From: a bacterium
Lineage (GTDB): Bacteria > BMS3Abin14
Length of the DNA: 47,922 nt
Assembly (NCBI GenBank): GCA_029210545.1
Contig: JARGFV010000005.1
Location: forward strand, 1 to 47,922
Direction of reading: 5' to 3'
Shown here: piece after piece, positions 2,963 to 47,922 of the stretch
How the letters are laid out: each line of letters begins with the position of its first letter
Numbering within the stretch: position 1 is the first letter of the stretch
The notes under the pieces: generated by a model
What the model was told of the DNA's origin: nothing
The model's input: only the letters and a program-made list of their open reading frames with translations
Databases searched by the model: none
Made by a program: the position numbers and the translations under genes

Positions 2963-3187
2963 GTAATATCGCAAAAGGTCCTGGTGGGACTTTTGCTCTA
3001 CGGATAGGGAAAAGCGCGGTTTTCCCTATCCTCACGGATCGAGCTTGCGGCCCTCGACTCTCGATCCGGGCGCCTTTCCCAGGCGCGGCTGTGAAGATCA
3101 TCTCATTATCGCAAAAGGTCCTGGCGGGACTTTCCGCTCCTTGGAAATCGAAAAGTGTCATTTTCACTTTCCTCTATCCTCCGTGAG
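2963..3187 (+). repeat. Composite hairpin repeat, copy R2 (A-B-A) inside the hyp operon
   Basis: Module A at about 2968-3037 contains hairpin GCAAAAGGTCC/GGGACTTTTGC and a perfect 12-bp stem GGATAGGGAAAA/TTTTCCCTATCC (3002-3013 with 3020-3031). Module B follows (GATCCGGGCGCCTTTCCCAG), then a second, more diverged module A. The element lies between hypD and hypC, antisense to the operon. It covers the last codons and stop of hypC and abuts the hypD start. Confidence 0.85.
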
Positions 3188-3411: not shown

Positions 3412-5757
3412 TCAGATCTCCCCTTCCCTGCGGGCGTGCATGGCGCAAACAGCCTGCCCCAGGGAAATGCCGCCATCGTTTGTAGGGACCTGGCGGTGGA
3501 AAAGAGGTTTAAGGGATCGTTTTTCAAACTCCGCTGCCAGGCGGACGCAGAAGATCTCGTTCTGAAAAACGCCGCCTCCAAGAGGGATGACCGGCTCGAG
3601 GCCCTCCTCCCCCTTCATGACGGCGGCCACTGCATCGGCCATGGAGGCGGCAAGGGTACCGTGAAAACAGCCGCCGACCGAAGCTGCAGAGCCACCCTGA
3701 CGAAGGATCTCCACCGCTGCGCAAAAAGCCGGGCCGGGATCGATAACCAGGGCACCGTTGCCATCCTCATCCATGGAGTACGGAAGAATATCGGTAACCC
3801 CCTCGTCCGTCAACATCTCCAGTTCGATGGCGGCCTGACCCTCGTACCTGGACCGGATGCAGGTTCCGGTCAGGGCCGAAAAAGCATCGAAAAGCCTGCC
3901 GGCGCTGGAGGTTGCGATCCCGTGACTGCGTCTGGAACACATGGAGACGATAGTCTCCAGCTCATTTCCCGGCACCGATGGGAAAAATTCGGCGGCCGCT
4001 TGAATGGCTTCGGTTTCCCCCATGGTCTCGACCATCCAGGAAACGGCCATGCGCCACGGCTGGTCGATCGCTTTTTCGCCCCCCGGCATCCACACCGGTT
4101 TCAGGTATCCTTTCCGTTCCATTCTGTGCCCATCGACACGCAGGATCTCACCTCCCCAAACCGTACCGTCGGTACCGTAACCGGTGCCGTCGAGGGACAG
4201 GCCCAGGACAGGCCCTGTTTTGCCTGCTTCGGCCTGGCAGCTGAGAATATGGGCGTGATGGTGCTGCACGGCGACGACGGGAAGATCCTCCGGCCATGGG
4301 ACTCCCATGGGAAATTCGGCAAGGGATGTGGTCATGAAGTCGGGGTGCAGGTCCCTTGCGACCGCCGCAGGGGTGACCTGGAGGATGTCCATGAGATGGG
4401 AGACGACCTCCAGGAGGAAATCCAGAGTTTCGAGGTTCTTGAGATCACCCAGGTGCTGGCCGATGAAGGCCCTGTTGCCGCGCGTGAGGCACACTGTCCC
4501 CTTCAGTTCGGGACCGAGGGCGAGGACAGGATCGGTCTCGAAGGGCAGGAACACGGGTGAAGGGACGAAACCCCTGGCCCGCCTGAGGACCACCGGTCCT
4601 GAATCGGGGTTGACCGGGTCGAGCCGGACGATGGAATCGTCGCAGCGAAGGAGAATATCCCTGTCGTGGGTCAGCCAGGCGTCCGCAATGCCGTGCAGTC
4701 TCCCCATAGCCTCCTGATTGTCCGAGCAGAGCGGCTCTTCCGTGATGTTGGCGCTGGTCATCACGAGAAACTCAAATTCCTCCATGAGGAGGTGGTGCAT
4801 GGGCGTGTAGGGCAGCATGAGGCCGAAATACCGGCTTTTGGGGGCCACGGCAGGGGAGATCGCCGCTTCAGGGCTCTGACGCCGCCTGAGGAGAGCTATG
4901 GGGCTCTCCGTGCTGGTGAGGATCTTCCTGGCGTGGTCATCGAGACGGCACAGCTTTTCTGCTGCGGCCAGGTCACGGACCATGAGGGCAAGCGGTTTTT
5001 CCTCACGCCCTTTCTTCTCCCTCAGCCTTTCGACTGCGTAAGAAGAAAGGGCGTCCACCGCCAGGTGAAAACCACCGAGACCTTTAATGGCCACGATCTT
5101 CCCCTTCTTGAGCAGTTCAAGAGATTCCGCAAGGGAATCCAGCCTTGCGCTTGTCCCGTTGTTGTGGACAAGCGCAAGGGAAGGACCACAGTCCGCGCAG
5201 GCGTTGGGCTGGGCGTGGAACCTCCTGTCGGCCGGGTCATCATACTCCCTCTGGCAGGACGAGCACATGGTGAAGCTAGCCATGGAGGTATTTGGCCTGT
5301 CGTAGGGCACCTTTTTAATGATGGTATAACGCGGTCCGCAGTTGGTGCAGTTGATAAAGGGGTATCTGTATCGGCGGTCAGCCGGGGTCAGCAGTTCCCT
5401 GACGCAGTCGGGGCACGTTGCCGTGTCGGGGGATACGAGGACTCTTGGATCAGCGCCCGCGAGGCTGTGTCGGATGGTGAAATCCTCGTAACCGATCGGT
5501 TTTTCTTTTTCAGACTTTATGGAGGTTATCCGGGCAAGCGGAGGAGGGTCATTTTCAAGGCGGGAAAGAAAGGTTTCCAGATCATCTTTCCCGCCCTCGA
5601 TCTGAATGACGACACCGTCGGAGGTGTTGCTGACCCAGCCGTAAAGGGAGCACTCCGTGGCCAGGCGGTAGACGAATGGCCTGAAACCTACCCCCTGGAC
5701 GATCCCTTCCACGGTGATGCGGTAACGCTCAGCCAACCCCTGTCCCCTTGCATCCAT
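3412..5757 (-). CDS. hypF: Carbamoyltransferase HypF
   Basis: HypF makes carbamoyl-AMP from carbamoyl phosphate and transfers the carbamoyl group to the HypE C-terminal Cys, the source of active-site cyanide. The 781-residue product has the expected domain order: acylphosphatase-like (GIVQGVGFRPFVYRLA, about 16-31), two zinc fingers (CPDC with CTNCGPRYT, CSSCQREYDD with CADCGP), a YrdC-like domain (GLGGFHLAVDA) and a Kae1-like C-terminal domain with VQHHHAHILS and SLDGTGYGTDGTVWGG. The length is normal. The ATG at 5755-5757 has only a weak upstream Shine-Dalgarno. It follows hypB across a 268-bp repeat-containing spacer. Confidence 0.97.
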   Translation of the reverse strand: MDARGQGLAERYRITVEGIVQGVGFRPFVYRLATECSLYGWVSNTSDGVVIQIEGGKDDLETFLSRLENDPPPLARITSIKSEKEKPIGYEDFTIRHSLAGADPRVLVSPDTATCPDCVRELLTPADRRYRYPFINCTNCGPRYTIIKKVPYDRPNTSMASFTMCSSCQREYDDPADRRFHAQPNACADCGPSLALVHNNGTSARLDSLAESLELLKKGKIVAIKGLGGFHLAVDALSSYAVERLREKKGREEKPLALMVRDLAAAEKLCRLDDHARKILTSTESPIALLRRRQSPEAAISPAVAPKSRYFGLMLPYTPMHHLLMEEFEFLVMTSANITEEPLCSDNQEAMGRLHGIADAWLTHDRDILLRCDDSIVRLDPVNPDSGPVVLRRARGFVPSPVFLPFETDPVLALGPELKGTVCLTRGNRAFIGQHLGDLKNLETLDFLLEVVSHLMDILQVTPAAVARDLHPDFMTTSLAEFPMGVPWPEDLPVVAVQHHHAHILSCQAEAGKTGPVLGLSLDGTGYGTDGTVWGGEILRVDGHRMERKGYLKPVWMPGGEKAIDQPWRMAVSWMVETMGETEAIQAAAEFFPSVPGNELETIVSMCSRRSHGIATSSAGRLFDAFSALTGTCIRSRYEGQAAIELEMLTDEGVTDILPYSMDEDGNGALVIDPGPAFCAAVEILRQGGSAASVGGCFHGTLAASMADAVAAVMKGEEGLEPVIPLGGGVFQNEIFCVRLAAEFEKRSLKPLFHRQVPTNDGGISLGQAVCAMHARREGEI

Positions 5758-6025: not shown

Positions 6026-6694
6026 CTAGACACCAGACACTTGTTTCCTCGTGAATTCCTTGACGAATTCGGACCAGCTGTCCAGTCCTTCTCCAGTACG
6101 ACACGACGTTTCCAGTATGCGGATGCCCGGATTGAGGGAACGGGCGCCTGCGACCGCCTTTTCCACAGAAAAATCGGTGTAGGGCAAAAGATCCATCTTG
6201 TTGACCACCATGACGTCGGCCGAGTGGAACATGGAAGGGTACTTGAGCGGTTTATCGTCCCCCTCGGTGACGCTGATGACCGAAACCCTGATCCCCTCCC
6301 CCAGGTCGAAGGCCGAGGGACATACCAGGTTCCCGACATTTTCAATAATGAGGAGATCGAGATCCTCCAGGCTGAAATGATCAAGAGCCCTCCTGATCAT
6401 TTCAGCCTCCAGGTGGCACGCTCCGCCCGTCTGGATCTGGTGGACGGGGACCCCGGTGGCGGCGATACGCAGGGCGTCGTTTTCGGTCTGGATGTCCCCC
6501 TCGATGACGCCTATGGACAGCGTCTCCGAAAGGGACCCGAGGGTCTTTTCGAGGAGGGACGTCTTCCCGGAACCGGGTGAACTGACCATGTTCATGACGG
6601 CAACGCCCTTTTCCCGGAACAGCTCCCTGAGCTCTGCGGCGAGCATGTCGTTGCGGGAAAGGACCTTCTTTTCGAGTCTGATCGTGTCGGACAA
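6026..6694 (-). CDS. hypB: Nickel-insertion GTPase HypB
   Basis: HypB is a GTPase that, with HypA, delivers nickel to the hydrogenase large subunit. The 222-residue product has Walker A SSPGSGKTSLLE (38-49), EGDIQTENDA, the G-domain metal site GACHLE (Cys93, His94) with Cys125 in GNLVCP, and NKMD (165-168). It lacks both the N-terminal CxxCGC high-affinity nickel motif and the histidine-rich stretch of some HypBs, so nickel loading probably relies on the G-domain site and HypA. The start is a TTG with GGAGG 6 nt upstream. The 124-bp spacer after hypA contains inverted CAGTAATCAGTACTCAG-type microrepeats. Confidence 0.97.
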   Translation of the reverse strand: MSDTIRLEKKVLSRNDMLAAELRELFREKGVAVMNMVSSPGSGKTSLLEKTLGSLSETLSIGVIEGDIQTENDALRIAATGVPVHQIQTGGACHLEAEMIRRALDHFSLEDLDLLIIENVGNLVCPSAFDLGEGIRVSVISVTEGDDKPLKYPSMFHSADVMVVNKMDLLPYTDFSVEKAVAGARSLNPGIRILETSCRTGEGLDSWSEFVKEFTRKQVSGV

Positions 6695-7365: not shown

Positions 7366-7417
7366 CCCAGTTATTCCTGAAAATACGGAAAAAATTGTAT
7401 TTTCAGGAATAACTGGG
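7366..7417. terminator. Perfect 21-bp inverted repeat overlapping the protease stop codon
   Basis: Arms 7366-7386 and 7397-7417 are exact reverse complements (CCCAGTTATTCCTGAAAATAC on the plus strand, split here as CCCAGTTATT and CCTGAAAATAC) with a 10-nt loop. Read leftward, the first arm contains the last five codons and the TGA of the protease gene. The loop read leftward has a run of six T but no T tail follows the stem, so it may be a processing or retro-regulatory hairpin rather than a simple terminator. Confidence 0.85.
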
Positions 7418-7939
7418 TGGGCCGGGCTGGACCAGGGGACGATCGATATGTTCGCGGTAATCTTCCGGGTCGAGACCTGCCGTCTCAAGCACGATCTCCA
7501 GTACCCTGGGAAGTTTTTCCCGGATGGCGGGAGACAGCTCCATGGACATTGTGAGTTCGGCCGGTTCGATCCCGATGATGGTGGTGTGAGGCGGCGTCCT
7601 CATGGTCCCGGACAGGTTGACGACCTCGGCGATGCTGATCTGGTGGACGGAGGTTTTGTACAGATCAGGGAGATGATCGAAATCGTCGATGTCGAACCTG
7701 TAGATAGAGGAAGGCTCATCGCCGCCCTTGACACAATCGACGACGATGAGCCTGTCTGCTTCCATGATGAGATGAAACAGCTTGAAACCGTCCGTACCGC
7801 CTTCGATGACCTCGATATTATCAGGGAGGGGGTACCCCTGGAGGTTTGTGACGACATGAACTCCGACGCCCTCGTCCCTCAGGAGCACGTTCCCCACTCC
7901 CAGGATCACTGTCTTGCCTGTGGTATCCGGCTGCCCCAT
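7403..7939 (-). CDS. hyaD: [NiFe] hydrogenase maturation endopeptidase (HyaD/HybD type, M52)
   Basis: This protease removes the C-terminal peptide of the large subunit after nickel insertion. The 178-residue product starts its fold with ILGVGNVLLRDEGVG and has the three nickel-sensing ligands at Glu23, Asp68 (VVDC) and His99 (TSVHQIS). The ATG at 7937-7939 directly follows GATAAGGAG with no spacer, so a GTG at codon 11 (before ILGVGN) is an alternative start; an upstream stop excludes a longer form. It lies 21 bp after the cytochrome b gene. The C-terminus (about residues 160-178) is longer than usual for HybD and ends inside a perfect inverted repeat. Confidence 0.93.
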   Translation of the reverse strand: MGQPDTTGKTVILGVGNVLLRDEGVGVHVVTNLQGYPLPDNIEVIEGGTDGFKLFHLIMEADRLIVVDCVKGGDEPSSIYRFDIDDFDHLPDLYKTSVHQISIAEVVNLSGTMRTPPHTTIIGIEPAELTMSMELSPAIREKLPRVLEIVLETAGLDPEDYREHIDRPLVQPGPPSYS

Positions 7940-11491: not shown

Positions 11492-11536
11492 ATATTTTTA
11501 TAATCAACCGTTTTCCCCGGTTGATTATAAAAATAT
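11492..11536. terminator. Perfect 19-bp inverted repeat overlapping the phosphodiesterase stop
   Basis: Arms 11492-11510 (ATATTTTTATAATCAACCG) and 11518-11536 are exact reverse complements with a 7-nt loop. Read leftward the first arm contains the last codons and the TAA (11525-11527) of the phosphodiesterase-like gene. The AT-rich distal part of the second arm gives a T-rich tail, so it could stop leftward transcription before the hydrogenase promoter. Confidence 0.8.
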
Positions 11537-12292
11537 GATCTGCCCATCCTGGAGGATCTCGATGTATTCCCTGCTGATCTCGGCCAGTTCTTCGTAGATC
11601 ACCTCCTTGTGGGACGGTTTGGAGTGGGAAATGAAAAACCGCAGGGGCAGGTTTTTCATCTTGAGAACTTCCCTGGCCAGGAGGTTGGGAGTCAGATGAC
11701 CGGTCTTGATGGCCAGGTCGGTCAGGCTGTTGGGAAAGGAAACCTCGACAATGACGGCGTCAAGGGTGTGTTCGTCGCACGCCTTCCATATGTTATCCGT
11801 TGGACCGGTGTCGCCGGTGTATACGATCCTCTTGCCCTTTTCGCTCTCCACAAGGTAACCCACGGCCGGTGTCGTGTGGTTCACGTGGTAGGCGGTGACC
11901 CGGTGCTTTTCGAGCTGGATGGTCTTTTCCACCATCATGGGCTCGAACTTGATGGTGGGCTTTTCCGGTGTGGGAATGAGGGAAAAATCGGGCCAGATGA
12001 GTCCGTTGAATACGTTCTGCCTGAGGATGTCGATGACTTCCGGATCGCTGTGCAGGTGTACGATGTGCTCCACGTTGCGGGTCACAAGGTTGTCGGCGAA
12101 GAACGGGATCGCCTTGATGTGGTCGAGGTGGGCGTGGGTGATGAAAATGTGCTCGATGGCTCTCTGGTCCTGGAAATCGAGGGCAAGCCCGATGGTGCCC
12201 GCGTCAAGGAGCACGGTCCTGTCAACGAGGAAACCCGGCATGTTGTGTTTGGGAAACTCCGCTCCGGCACAGCCCAGGATGTGTAAACGCAT
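11525..12292 (-). CDS. Metallo-beta-lactamase-fold hydrolase, class II cAMP phosphodiesterase-like
   Basis: The 255-residue product has the metal motif THAHLDH (52-58), an NHTTPAVGYLVE segment, YTGDTGPTDN and a later FISHSKPSH histidine, as in class II cyclic-nucleotide phosphodiesterases and RNase Z relatives. It lacks the substrate-recognition arm of true RNase Z. Class II phosphodiesterase is favoured because the next operon encodes a CHASE2 adenylate cyclase and a cNMP-binding remnant, so it may hydrolyse cAMP. GGAGG lies 6 nt before the ATG. The 3' end is embedded in an inverted repeat. The specific substrate is an inference. Confidence 0.75.
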   Translation of the reverse strand: MRLHILGCAGAEFPKHNMPGFLVDRTVLLDAGTIGLALDFQDQRAIEHIFITHAHLDHIKAIPFFADNLVTRNVEHIVHLHSDPEVIDILRQNVFNGLIWPDFSLIPTPEKPTIKFEPMMVEKTIQLEKHRVTAYHVNHTTPAVGYLVESEKGKRIVYTGDTGPTDNIWKACDEHTLDAVIVEVSFPNSLTDLAIKTGHLTPNLLAREVLKMKNLPLRFFISHSKPSHKEVIYEELAEISREYIEILQDGQIIFL

Positions 12293-17508: not shown

Positions 17509-17820
17509 AGGGTCGCAAAAGTCCGTGCGGGCCTTTTGCTTAACGGGAACCGAAAAGCGTGGTTTTCGGTTCCCTCACGGGGGCTACTGGCATATCGCAA
17601 AAGTCCGTGCGGGCCTTTTGCTTAACGGGAACCGAAAAGCGTGGTTTCCGGTTCCCTCACGGATCAGTGACATGTATTTCAGTCACTGATCCGGGCGCCG
17701 CTCCCAGGCGCGGCAGTTTTCACGGGTCATCGATCCGGGCGCCCTTCCCAGGCGCGGCGGGTCATTGATTTGGGCGCCCCGCGCGGGGCGCGTTGATGAC
17801 TTTTTGCGAAGTCATCATCT
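17509..17820 (+). repeat. Composite hairpin repeat, copy R3 (A-A-B-B-C), the most complete
   Basis: Two module A copies start at 17514 and 17595; the first has a perfect 12-bp stem GGGAACCGAAAA/TTTTCGGTTCCC at 17545-17556 and 17563-17574. Two B units follow (GATCCGGGCGCC then CCCAGGCGCGGC, each preceded by an inverted GTCAY word). Module C (17757-17816) ends with hairpin GATGACTT/AAGTCATC. The element fills most of the 430-bp gap between the HD-GYP and HAD genes; nothing else was recognised in the gap. Confidence 0.88.
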
Positions 17821-22353: not shown

Positions 22354-23079
22354 CTATTCCGGCCTGAACGCCCCGGCTTTTATTTTCGGGTTCAGGGTGA
22401 TTCCCTGAATTTCCGTCGTACCCGTGTGAAACCCCGACGCCCAGTTTTCCTCGTGGTGGGGGAACAGCACTCCCTCCACCTCCCTGAAGTCCGAATAGGC
22501 CGTCTCGAAGTGGGTCTTCAGCGTCTCGGTGTTGAGCACCGCCTGGCTGTAGACGATGAGGGAGCTTTGCGGGTCGGCATAAAGGCGCAGGATGAGCCCG
22601 GGTTCCAGGATGATCTGCAGGCCGATGGTCATCTTCTCCCCGACCCTGGCGGCCGGGGCCTGGGCCACATCCCCCCGGCGCTCGTCCAGGATCCATGGGA
22701 TATCGGCGCGGGCCGCCTGGAGGACCATCGATTTCAGCAGCGCCCCATCCACCTGCTGGATGCCCCTGCCGTTGGGGTCGGTACGCCACCCGCGCTCCCG
22801 GTCCAGGTACCGCCTCTCGGGGTTGACCTCGTAAGGGAGATCGACATAAAGCCGATCAGGCCTTGAGAAGAGCCTTTCCACGGCTCCCGGAGCCTTTTGC
22901 ATCTTTGCATCCACGGTCCCGGTCATCCGGTAGGCGGTCACGTCATTAAGCTTTTCGCCACCGTATGCAGCAATAATCTTGTCGATGAGCGAGTCCATGG
23001 CGGAACCAGCTGTGGCTGTTGTAGCAATCAGCTGACTGCTGATTGCTACAACAAAAAACAGAAACATGATCCTTTTCAT
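22354..23079 (-). CDS. Exported LolA/outer-membrane-lipoprotein-sorting-like protein
   Basis: The 241-residue precursor has a clear signal peptide (MKRIMFLFFVVAISSQLIAT..ATA, cleavage near 26) and then a beta-rich domain (YRMTGTVDAKMQKAPG, RPDRLYVDLPYE, MTIGLQIILEPG) resembling periplasmic lipoprotein-carrier-type proteins. Exact role unknown. The start at 23077-23079 (GGAGA upstream) is chosen over an 83-codon N-terminal extension that would run through the tRNA-Val gene. The signal-peptide codons contain a perfect 15-bp inverted repeat (23018-23032 and 23038-23052). Confidence 0.7.
   Translation of the reverse strand: MKRIMFLFFVVAISSQLIATTATAGSAMDSLIDKIIAAYGGEKLNDVTAYRMTGTVDAKMQKAPGAVERLFSRPDRLYVDLPYEVNPERRYLDRERGWRTDPNGRGIQQVDGALLKSMVLQAARADIPWILDERRGDVAQAPAARVGEKMTIGLQIILEPGLILRLYADPQSSLIVYSQAVLNTETLKTHFETAYSDFREVEGVLFPHHEENWASGFHTGTTEIQGITLNPKIKAGAFRPE
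23018..23052. repeat. Perfect 15-bp inverted repeat inside a signal-peptide coding region
   Basis: GTTGTAGCAATCAGC, loop TGACT, then GCTGATTGCTACAAC. The mRNA hairpin would form 27-61 nt after the start codon of the LolA-like gene. Confidence 0.85.
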
Positions 23080-23158: not shown

Positions 23159-23212
23159 CCCACCACAAAAAAAGAACGGACCGATAGGGGTCCGCTCGTT
23201 TTTTGTGGTGGG
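23159..23212 (-). terminator. Terminator of tRNA-Val, with an arm that copies the tRNA 3' end
   Basis: Read leftward the stem starts in the tRNA 3' end (CCCACCACAAAAAACGAG), continues GCGGACC, turns at CCCTATC, and returns as GGTCCGTTCTTTTTTTGTGG. The two arms match as inverted copies at about 22 of 24 positions, including the tRNA CCCACCA. The T7 run suits termination. Confidence 0.75.
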
Positions 23213-23280
23213 CGATACTGGATTTGAACCAGTGACTTCTGCCGTGTGAAGGCAGCACTCTCCCGCTGAGTTAATCGCCC
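23206..23280 (-). tRNA. tRNA-Val (anticodon CAC), CCA encoded
   Basis: Read leftward: acceptor GGGCGAT pairs with ATCGCCC, followed by A and CCA. The anticodon arm is CTGCC-TTCACAC-GGCAG, giving anticodon CAC for GTG codons. The T arm contains GGTTCAAATCC. The length is 75 nt with CCA. It has its own promoter and a terminator. Confidence 0.96.
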
Positions 23281-23333: not shown

Positions 23334-23420
23334 GGAGTTTACTGTTTACAGTTCACGGTTTACAGTGCAACCGCTGCTATTGCTCAAAGGTTTGGCATGC
23401 CTTTACTGTGAACAGTCAAC
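23334..23420. repeat. CTGTAAACCGTGAAC microrepeats near tRNA-Val
   Basis: GTTTACTGTTTACAGTTCAC and GGTTTACAGT on the left, and TTTACTGTGAACAGTCAAC (23402-23420) on the right, form an imperfect inverted pair. Confidence 0.6.
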
Positions 23421-23421
23421 T

Positions 23422-23452
23422 GGAAATTAAGCAGCTTAACTGCTTAATTTCC
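23422..23452. terminator. Perfect 13-bp inverted repeat at the DUF1178 gene end
   Basis: GGAAATTAAGCAG (23422-23434), 5-nt loop, CTGCTTAATTTCC (23440-23452). Read leftward, the first arm holds the last codons and the loop region holds the TAA stop (23436-23438). Confidence 0.8.
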
Positions 23453-23834
23453 TAACCGGCACCTTGAAGTACTCCACCCCTTCCTCCTGGAGTTCCTGTT
23501 CCTCCTCGTCGGTCACGGTGCCCCGGATGTTGCGGTACTCGACTTCGTCAAAGTGCATCTTCAGGGCCTCATCGGCGAAACCCGGGCCCACGTTGTCGAA
23601 GTTCTCCTCCAGGTACCGGGCCAGCGCCTTCGCGAAGTTGGGGGGGGCGGCGGCCCCTCGTGAGCTGCCCTTAACCGCCACGTGGCCCCCTGAGGGGAGG
23701 GCGTTCACCTCCGTAACGCCGCACACCGGGCAGCTGAGCCTGCCGGCCTTCTTCTCGAGGTCGAACTCTTCCCTGGACTTGAACCAGCCCTCGAAAGTAT
23801 GTTCCCGCGTGCACTGAAGGTCGTAGATGATCAT
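23436..23834 (-). CDS. DUF1178 family zinc-ribbon-like protein
   Basis: The 132-residue soluble protein begins MIIYDLQCTREHTFEGWFKS and has CPVCG near residue 35, the usual cysteine pair of DUF1178 proteins; a C-terminal VEYRNIRGTVTDEE segment also fits. Function unknown. Two in-frame ATGs are possible: the family-like MIIYDL (23832-23834) is used, though GGAG is only 3 nt away; MELMIIYDL (23841-23843) would add three residues. The gene ends within an inverted repeat. Confidence 0.85.
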   Translation of the reverse strand: MIIYDLQCTREHTFEGWFKSREEFDLEKKAGRLSCPVCGVTEVNALPSGGHVAVKGSSRGAAAPPNFAKALARYLEENFDNVGPGFADEALKMHFDEVEYRNIRGTVTDEEEQELQEEGVEYFKVPVRKLSS

Positions 23835-23924
23835 AAGCTCCATGCCTCTTGCTGCCAAGTTTACATTAAAAGTAAGCCATAAGGGAACAGTGTCAATGAG
23901 GGGAGACGGAAAGGGTGTGCATTA

Positions 23925-30945: not shown

Positions 30946-31124
30946 TTGATAGAGTCGCAAAAAGTCCAATCCGGGACTTTTCGCTCCACGGAAAGGGAAA
31001 AGCGTCGTTTTCCCTTTCCTCACAAATCAATGACTTATCCCGCAAATTAATGACTTGCGGGACGGGTCATTGATTTGGGCACCCCACGCGGGGTGCGTTG
31101 ATGGACTTTTTGCGAGTCCATCAA
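30946..31124 (+). repeat. Composite hairpin repeat, copy R4 (A-C)
   Basis: Module A has a perfect 12-bp stem GGAAAGGGAAAA/TTTTCCCTTTCC (30990-31001 with 31008-31019). It is followed by paired AATGACTTA words and a module C in which the palindrome has become GCACCCCACGCGGGGTGC and the last hairpin GATGGACT/AGTCCATC (31100-31122). Both changes keep the pairing. Confidence 0.88.
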
Positions 31125-32221: not shown

Positions 32222-32640
32222 AACGACACAAAGACGCGGTGACGCGGAAATGGGGAGAAACGGCGCCGGCAGGATCAGTAGCCCGTCATTACGAGCTGAT
32301 ATCGGGCGAAGCGATCCCGGTTTCCGAAATAGCGGTAGAAACTTATTCACAACTCCTGATAGAGTCGCAAAAAGTCCAATCCGGGACTTTTCGCTCCACG
32401 AAAAGGGAAAAGCGGGGTTTTTCCTTTCCTCACGGAGATTACTGATAGATCGCCAAAGTCTATGCGAGACTTTGGCTCAACGGAAAGGAAAAGGCGGGGT
32501 TTGTCCTTTCCTCACGGATCGCGACATATTTGCCGGTCATCGATCCGGGCGCCCCGCGCGGGGCGCATTGATGACTTTTTTCGAAGTCATCAACTTAGAA
32601 CGCAGAGTAAATCTGTCTTATTGGAGGCGATTGAAAAACG
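32222..32640. other. Repeat-filled spacer between tpiA and secG, 419 bp
   Basis: After a short ACACAAAGACGCGGTGACGC microrepeat, most of the gap is composite repeat R5. No promoter with good consensus was seen, so secG may be read through from tpiA. No ORF. Confidence 0.6.
32356..32597 (+). repeat. Composite hairpin repeat, copy R5 (A-A-B/C)
   Basis: The first module A is nearly identical to R4 for its first 45 bp. The second module A has stem 1 changed to a perfect GCCAAAGTCT/AGACTTTGGC (32452-32461 with 32467-32476). A GGTCATCGATCCGGGC word leads to the GC palindrome and hairpin GATGACTT/AAGTCATC (32570-32591). Confidence 0.87.
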
Positions 32641-38079: not shown

Positions 38080-38130
38080 TGATGGACGCGCAAAAAGTCC
38101 CGGATTGGACTTTTTGCGACCCTATCAACT
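38080..38130 (+). repeat. Composite hairpin repeat, fragment R6
   Basis: GATGGACGCGCAAAAAGTCC leads into a perfect CGCAAAAAGTCC/GGACTTTTTGCG hairpin, then ACCCTATCAAC. It corresponds to the first stem of module A joined to a module C end. Confidence 0.75.
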
Positions 38131-47742: not shown

Positions 47743-47922
47743 ATTGATGGACTCGCAAAAAAGTCCATCAACGCGCCCCGCGCGGGGCGCCCAAATCAAT
47801 GACTCACCGCGCCTGGGAGAGGCGCCCGGATCGATGACCGGCAATAGCAGCCGCGCCCGGGGAGGGCGCCCGGATCGAGTGCCAATGGCTGTGTGTTCGA
47901 TCCGTGAGGGAACCGAAAACCA
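47743..47922 (-). repeat. Composite hairpin repeat, copy R7 (inverted, runs off the window)
   Basis: In reverse orientation it shows module C (hairpin GATGGACT/AGTCCATC at 47746-47769 and the GC palindrome), two B units, then the start of a module A whose arm is TTTTCGGTTCCC, as in R3. The order read on the minus strand is A-B-B-C, identical to R3. The remainder lies beyond the right edge. Confidence 0.85.

Follow-up and report, generated by a model that had tools for sequence, protein, structure and literature searches.

How does a long and perfect hairpin come to straddle the end of a gene? Long perfect stems are rarely built by point mutations, and their origin is an open question. At 7366-7417 of the DNA studied here, the last codons and stop codon of a protease gene are mirrored exactly by the non-coding sequence that follows. 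Because the gene end supplies a known template, orthologues reveal which way the copying went, and relatives with and without the arm at one gene can be set side by side, the birth of terminator-like hairpins becomes directly testable. The window, meaning the whole stretch of 47,922 nucleotides that was analysed, is one entire contig (C5) of the 2.72-Mb genome of an uncultured bacterium, which is in 241 contigs and 97.5% complete.

Inverted repeats at gene ends in the window

A first-pass annotation had described inverted repeats at the ends of three protein genes and one tRNA gene, with the 3' end of the gene as one arm. All four repeats are borne out, with perfect arms of 21, 19, 13 and 14 bp, and each has the exact reverse complement nearby that marks a template-switch product (quasipalindrome). 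The description of the gene end as an arm fits two of the protein genes fully, since the stop codon lies within the arm for the HycI hydrogenase maturation protease (7403-7405) and for a metallo-beta-lactamase/class-II phosphodiesterase-like protein (11525-11527). For the DUF1178 gene it fits only in part, with the last codons in the arm and the stop in the loop. The features are as follows.

7366-7417: HycI gene-end repeat, arms 21 bp, loop 10
7366..7386, no strand: HycI downstream arm (the copy), 21 bp, non-coding, without counterpart in the gene ends of 8/8 relatives
7397..7417, minus: HycI gene arm, 21 bp, last codons (..PSYS) and stop TGA; ORF 7403-7939
11492-11536: phosphodiesterase-like gene-end repeat, arms 19 bp, loop 7
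11492..11510, no strand: phosphodiesterase-like downstream arm (the copy), 19 bp, without counterpart in 3/3 family orthologues
11518..11536, minus: phosphodiesterase-like gene arm, 19 bp, last codons (IFL) and stop TAA; ORF 11525-12292
23422-23452: DUF1178 gene-end repeat, arms 13 bp, loop 5
23422..23434, no strand: DUF1178 downstream arm (the copy), 13 bp
23440..23452, minus: DUF1178 gene arm, 13 bp, codons R-K-L-S; ORF 23436-23858, stop TAA 23436-23438 in the loop
23159-23212: tRNA-Val repeat, outer arms of 14 bp around a nested 9-bp hairpin, then seven T
23159..23172, no strand: tRNA-Val downstream arm, 14 bp, mirror of the tRNA 3' end, its outer part past the T-run of the nested terminator
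23174..23197, minus: tRNA-Val nested terminator-like hairpin, 9 pairs, then seven T
23199..23212, minus: tRNA-Val tRNA arm, 14 bp, with the CCCACCA end; tRNA-Val(CAC) 23206-23280
1837-1867, minus: fifth, weaker gene-end repeat, arms 12 bp, loop 7, at the end of ORF 1852-2955

The window holds 40 perfect repeats with arms of at least 10 bp and 16 with arms of at least 13 bp, against means of 1.57 and 0.02 (maxima 7 and 1) in 200 dinucleotide shuffles of the same sequence. Some long inverted repeats lie within genes (5005-5054, 5143-5179 and 6369-6408), and a perfect 16-bp repeat with a 5-bp loop (23017-23053) sits inside the predicted gene 22354-23079 on the minus strand, near its start. The window also contains a TPP riboswitch (190-286, minus; Rfam RF00059, 61.8 bits). 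Degenerate seven-base repeats (GTTTACT GTTTACA GTTCACG GTTTACA) occupy 23334-23368, and words akin to them come after several arms in the genome, as if intergenic DNA grew by slippage too.

Excess of repeats at gene ends in the genome

The window's genome was sampled over 848 kb in two parts (448 kb and 400 kb), with genes from a simple hexamer caller; the second 400 kb was fetched after the hypothesis had been formed and serves as a held-out part. Repeats were counted when they were perfect, spanned a gene end and had arms of at least 13 bp. Dispersed repeats of that arm length were dropped before counting (25 in the 848 kb, 4 in genome G003, 2 in G004 and 2 in E. coli). The null model puts each new arm at a random non-coding position and lets its template lie to either side.

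Repeats span 16 of the 753 gene ends in the pooled sample, where 2.8 are expected (p=1e-8). The excess is present in the first 448 kb (10/410 genes vs 1.7 expected, p=5e-6), in that sample after removal of the window (7 vs 1.2) and in the held-out 400 kb (6/343 vs 1.1, p=5e-4). The genome-wide scan named as a check by the first-pass annotation therefore gives gene-end repeats at about 5-6 times the expectation for neutral placement. Gene starts match the null model (2 spanning repeats vs 3.0 expected), as do repeats lying wholly within 60 bp downstream of genes (13 vs 11.4). Repeats are, in addition, over-represented throughout non-coding DNA.

The downstream arm as the derived copy

Comparison of orthologous gene ends, the other check named by the first-pass annotation, shows ends that mostly lack the arm and retain the coding end. 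The HycI repeat is missing in 8/8 relatives examined (an N-terminal HycI fragment, L007, is not among them), while the protein end GPPSY is largely conserved in relatives. The phosphodiesterase repeat is missing in 3/3 relatives and the DUF1178 repeat in 5/6; at this site the DUF1178 gene of G008 (L027) carries a distinct 14-bp pair. A 15-bp repeat at gene L054:11897-12910 extends just 6 bases into the gene and is missing in 6/6 relatives.

The repeat is confined to one partner in 23 orthologue pairs, which represent 16 repeat-bearing genes. Across them, 54 of the 86 residues encoded by the arm are identical, vs 57.5 expected from whole-protein identity; two of these pairs are REP-like insertions in G004 with zero identical residues. 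The coding arm is thus kept at the normal rate in orthologues without a repeat, which makes the non-coding downstream arm the derived copy and the template arm the ancestral one. The window's organism is the sole g1 genome in the set, and in a set without a congener its intergenic copies are not alignable base by base.

Turnover between relatives is visible at single loci. Gene L058:15191-16726 has a hairpin around its stop of 17 bp in the window's genome, 15 bp in G003 and 9 bp plus wobbles in G008; the place is the same, yet both arms differ in sequence among the three, and the orthologues in G002, G004 and G009 have no hairpin. In the G008/G003 pair L159/L192, a common 10-bp hairpin has a G-C pair turned into C-G, with both arms changed. 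Such co-changing arms would be consistent with repeated re-copying or with compensatory selection. In the samples, 142 orthologue pairs between the window's genome, G008 and G003 were defined by reciprocal best hits; at arms of at least 10 bp, the repeat is on both sides in 2, on one side only in 6 and 5, and on neither in 129 (odds 8.6, p=0.05). Sharing is above chance, a hint of selection.

Distribution among relatives

Genomes G003, G008 and G011 form the genus g4. Repeats with arms of at least 13 bp stand at 8/388 gene ends in G008 (1.3 expected) and at 2/168 in G003 (0.2 expected). None was found in G001 (0/356), G002 (0/93), G004 (0/81), G007 (0/79), G009 (0/92) or G010 (0/74), nor in E. 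coli K-12 (0/214 genes). The window's genome with G008 and G003 (26/1309) differs from these six other family genomes (0/775) at p=6e-6 (Fisher); G006 and G011, which together have 1/27 genes with such a repeat, located in G011, were excluded from the Fisher tests. When the arm is lowered to at least 10 bp, some of the others carry a few gene-end repeats (G004 3, G007 1, G001 1, E. coli 2). The best reading is a process active both in the window's organism and in g4, a neighbouring genus.

Loss of SbcCD, a nuclease that cuts hairpins, is a factor associated with template-switch products. SbcD (TIGR00619) is above its curated cut-off in none of the nine family genomes G000-G008, active or inactive, with weak sub-cut-off matches in three, so this protein does not distinguish active genomes from inactive ones.

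tRNA ends

In the samples of the window's genome, 4 of the 6 tRNAs have a perfect repeat (arm 10-24) that runs into the CCA end, compared with 1/35 elsewhere (G008 1/8, G003 0/7, other family genomes 0/17, E. coli 0/3). Mirrored tRNA ends were scored solely where they abut tRNAs; a genome-wide count of CACCA..TGGTG pairs was discarded as a measure because chance matches swamp it (170 vs 77 in a reversed control, window's genome). The CCA end cannot be adjusted to its neighbour, so the downstream arm is the copy at tRNAs too. At L261 (G000:C22) 237-290, the GCACCA end of a tRNA-Leu is mirrored in the perfect 24-bp hairpin that comes after it. One tRNA in G001 adjoins a near-perfect mirrored repeat, which indicates that the tRNA form is not confined to the clade.

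RNA level or DNA level

The first-pass annotation further suggested that the copied ends are used as terminators or as shields of RNA 3' ends, and this was not supported as stated. When the window's genome and g4 are taken together, a T-rich tract (at least 6 T within 8 bases close to the stem's 3' end) accompanies 3 of the 51 long gene-end hairpins, vs 15 of the 59 that lie wholly downstream; 24 of the 51 are perfect. Inspection of the 3' flanks at 7366-7417, 11492-11536 and 23422-23452 found no T-rich tract of the kind that defines an intrinsic terminator. The tRNA-Val locus does have such a tract, in the form of its nested 9-pair hairpin with seven T, and the mirrored CCCACCA stands outside it. 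Being beyond the T-run, this outer arm should be absent from the RNA.

If pairing were kept for the sake of RNA, G-U mismatches should exceed A-C mismatches on the sense strand. With overlapping hairpins merged, which is the count that we rely on, G-U and A-C mismatches in the window's genome and g4 number 18:15 at gene ends, 28:34 downstream and 46:49 together. The corresponding ratio for downstream hairpins of E. coli is 7:0, a small set of seven mismatches that differs from 46:49 at p=0.013 (Fisher). A looser first count gave 21 A-C and 6 G-U downstream, and 3 A-C and 4 G-U at gene ends. With no G-U excess in either count, RNA-level selection recognizable by G-U tolerance was rejected. Nevertheless, the hairpins may stabilise RNA 3' ends. 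Predicted RNA folds of the four are stable (z -4.0 to -7.5), and hairpin midpoints peak at 0 to +20 from the stop codon, with 19 more at -20 to 0.

Alternative explanations

These observations bear on the explanation that the hairpins are RNA structures, terminators or 3' shields against exonucleases, that selection has built up one base at a time while compensatory changes kept the arms paired. It agrees with enrichment at gene ends but not starts, with midpoints that peak between the stop codon and +60, with the stability of the predicted folds and with the few hairpins common to orthologues in which both arms have changed. Rho is above cut-off in 11 of the 12 family genomes, which rules out its absence as the reason for the hairpins and is a further point in favour of RNA hairpins, as Rho-made RNA 3' ends in E. 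coli are trimmed by exonucleases (PMC7815308); judging from gene content, Rho-made ends in this family could possibly be trimmed back to the hairpin. We still regard selection of this kind as unlikely, given the rarity of T-rich tracts, the equal numbers of G-U and A-C mismatches, the mirrored tRNA-Val CCA past its T-run, the many orthologues without a hairpin, and long perfect arms that far exceed what a terminator requires. Selection need not be involved if inverted copies arise everywhere and simply persist longer where one arm lies in a constrained gene, as the repeat excess across all non-coding DNA might suggest. By our estimate, however, such neutral survival yields at most about a two-fold excess and should raise gene starts too, whereas ends are up 5.7-fold and starts are not enriched; it is ruled out as the full cause and is decidedly improbable as the explanation.

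Insertion of dispersed REP-like palindromic elements at gene ends has to be considered because such repeats do exist in the genome and two gene ends of G004 have them. In the window, one dispersed palindrome of REP-like type (TTGATGGACT..AGTCCATCAA and related sequences, frequently adjacent to GCGCGGGGCGC) is found at 50-77, 17794-17817, 31098-31124, 32568-32593, 38089-38118 and 47744-47771, and members of a second family (GGGAAAA GCG.. TTTTCCC and related sequences) at 3002-3031, 17545-17574 and 30990-31019. The two gene ends in G004 (L193 and L195) were apparently replaced by REP-like palindromes, with altered C-termini. But of the 10 gene-end repeats with arms of at least 13 bp in the first 448 kb, none is marked as a repeated sequence, and coding arms are homologous to orthologues without repeats. 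The many copies typical of REP/BIME-like elements were thus not found in that sample; a REP origin of the four repeats is refuted as far as the sample reaches, and insertion is extremely improbable in general. Terminators built on a DNA uptake sequence, as in Neisseria, have arms that share one common uptake word; here the arms differ between gene ends, which does not fit this type. An assembly or amplification artefact in the form of fold-back chimeras would be a concern in a fragmented genome bin of 241 contigs, yet the same pattern is seen in G008, a separate single-contig assembly of 2.03 Mb, an orthologous hairpin with a paired change is common to G008 and G003, and the excess is tied to gene ends, to which artefacts would be blind. 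We therefore judge an artefact very unlikely.

Probable inverted copying by template switching

The arms are perfect, they are enriched at gene ends, the coding arm is ancestral, repeats turn over between relatives and the arms change together. On this basis, the hairpins are probably inverted copies of gene ends that come from short-range template switching during replication, are renewed, and are retained at 3' ends. The origin put forward by the first-pass annotation, inverted copying through template switching at replication forks, thus gains support from the end excess and the derived downstream arm, while template switching itself is something we infer from its product. It is the simplest account of the perfect arms, their direction, the turnover and the lack of RNA-strand bias.

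We infer the fold-back step, the way it is seeded and whatever advantage the hairpin gives RNA 3' ends as follows. The growing strand would fold back at the gene end, where a short pre-existing hairpin perhaps acts as the seed; the last codons, the stop codon or the tRNA CCA end would be copied in reverse, after which the strand would return. The product would be a perfect palindrome with an old coding arm and a new non-coding arm. Such a process would be self-renewing, with arms that keep pace with changes in the gene itself, and gene ends would retain its products more often than other places do. Mutation alone does not account for a five-fold higher density at ends than in the rest of the intergenic space. 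Two candidate explanations are seeding by existing short terminator hairpins and retention because a 3' hairpin protects transcripts.

A broader proposal, which we offer tentatively, is that the 3' hairpins of this clade are self-templated: replication would mint and re-correct them from the last codons or the CCA end, and selection would keep those that help to end or protect transcripts. If so, a hairpin would change in step with the coding sequence. The findings as a whole point to a lineage in which replication or repair seems unusually liable to copy by folding back, and the system may offer an unusually direct view of new hairpins arising at gene ends.

Comparison with known systems

Our literature search turned up no account of inverted copying as the origin of hairpins at bacterial gene ends; related phenomena are known from other settings. 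Template-switch mutations create and maintain RNA hairpins (Monttinen and Loytynoja 2022, PMC8794818). In that study, as here, a single reverse-complement copying event gives a perfect stem and the arms can be corrected in concert; that system concerns RNA genes and ancestral reconstructions, whereas the present one concerns 3' ends of bacterial protein and tRNA genes, at many loci, with the gene end as template. For repeats of 6-9 bp reported earlier, template switching on imperfect palindromes was likewise proposed as the source, but they lie within coding sequences, while those described here are 10-25 bp long and straddle gene ends.

Intrinsic terminators and post-stop repeats resemble the present hairpins in clustering at the 3' ends of genes. 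An E. coli map places inverted repeats downstream of the stop codon, scarce upstream of it and mostly as parts of terminators (PMC6060812), and a survey of 118,019 genomes gives a bacterial inverted-repeat peak at +50 to +80 (PMC13155455). In contrast to those repeats, the hairpins described here straddle the stop and mostly have no T-tract. The coding palindromes of nematomorph mitochondria (PMC6649704) are also long perfect inverted repeats that involve coding sequence. Both of their arms are coding, whereas at the gene ends studied here one arm is coding and the other is non-coding.
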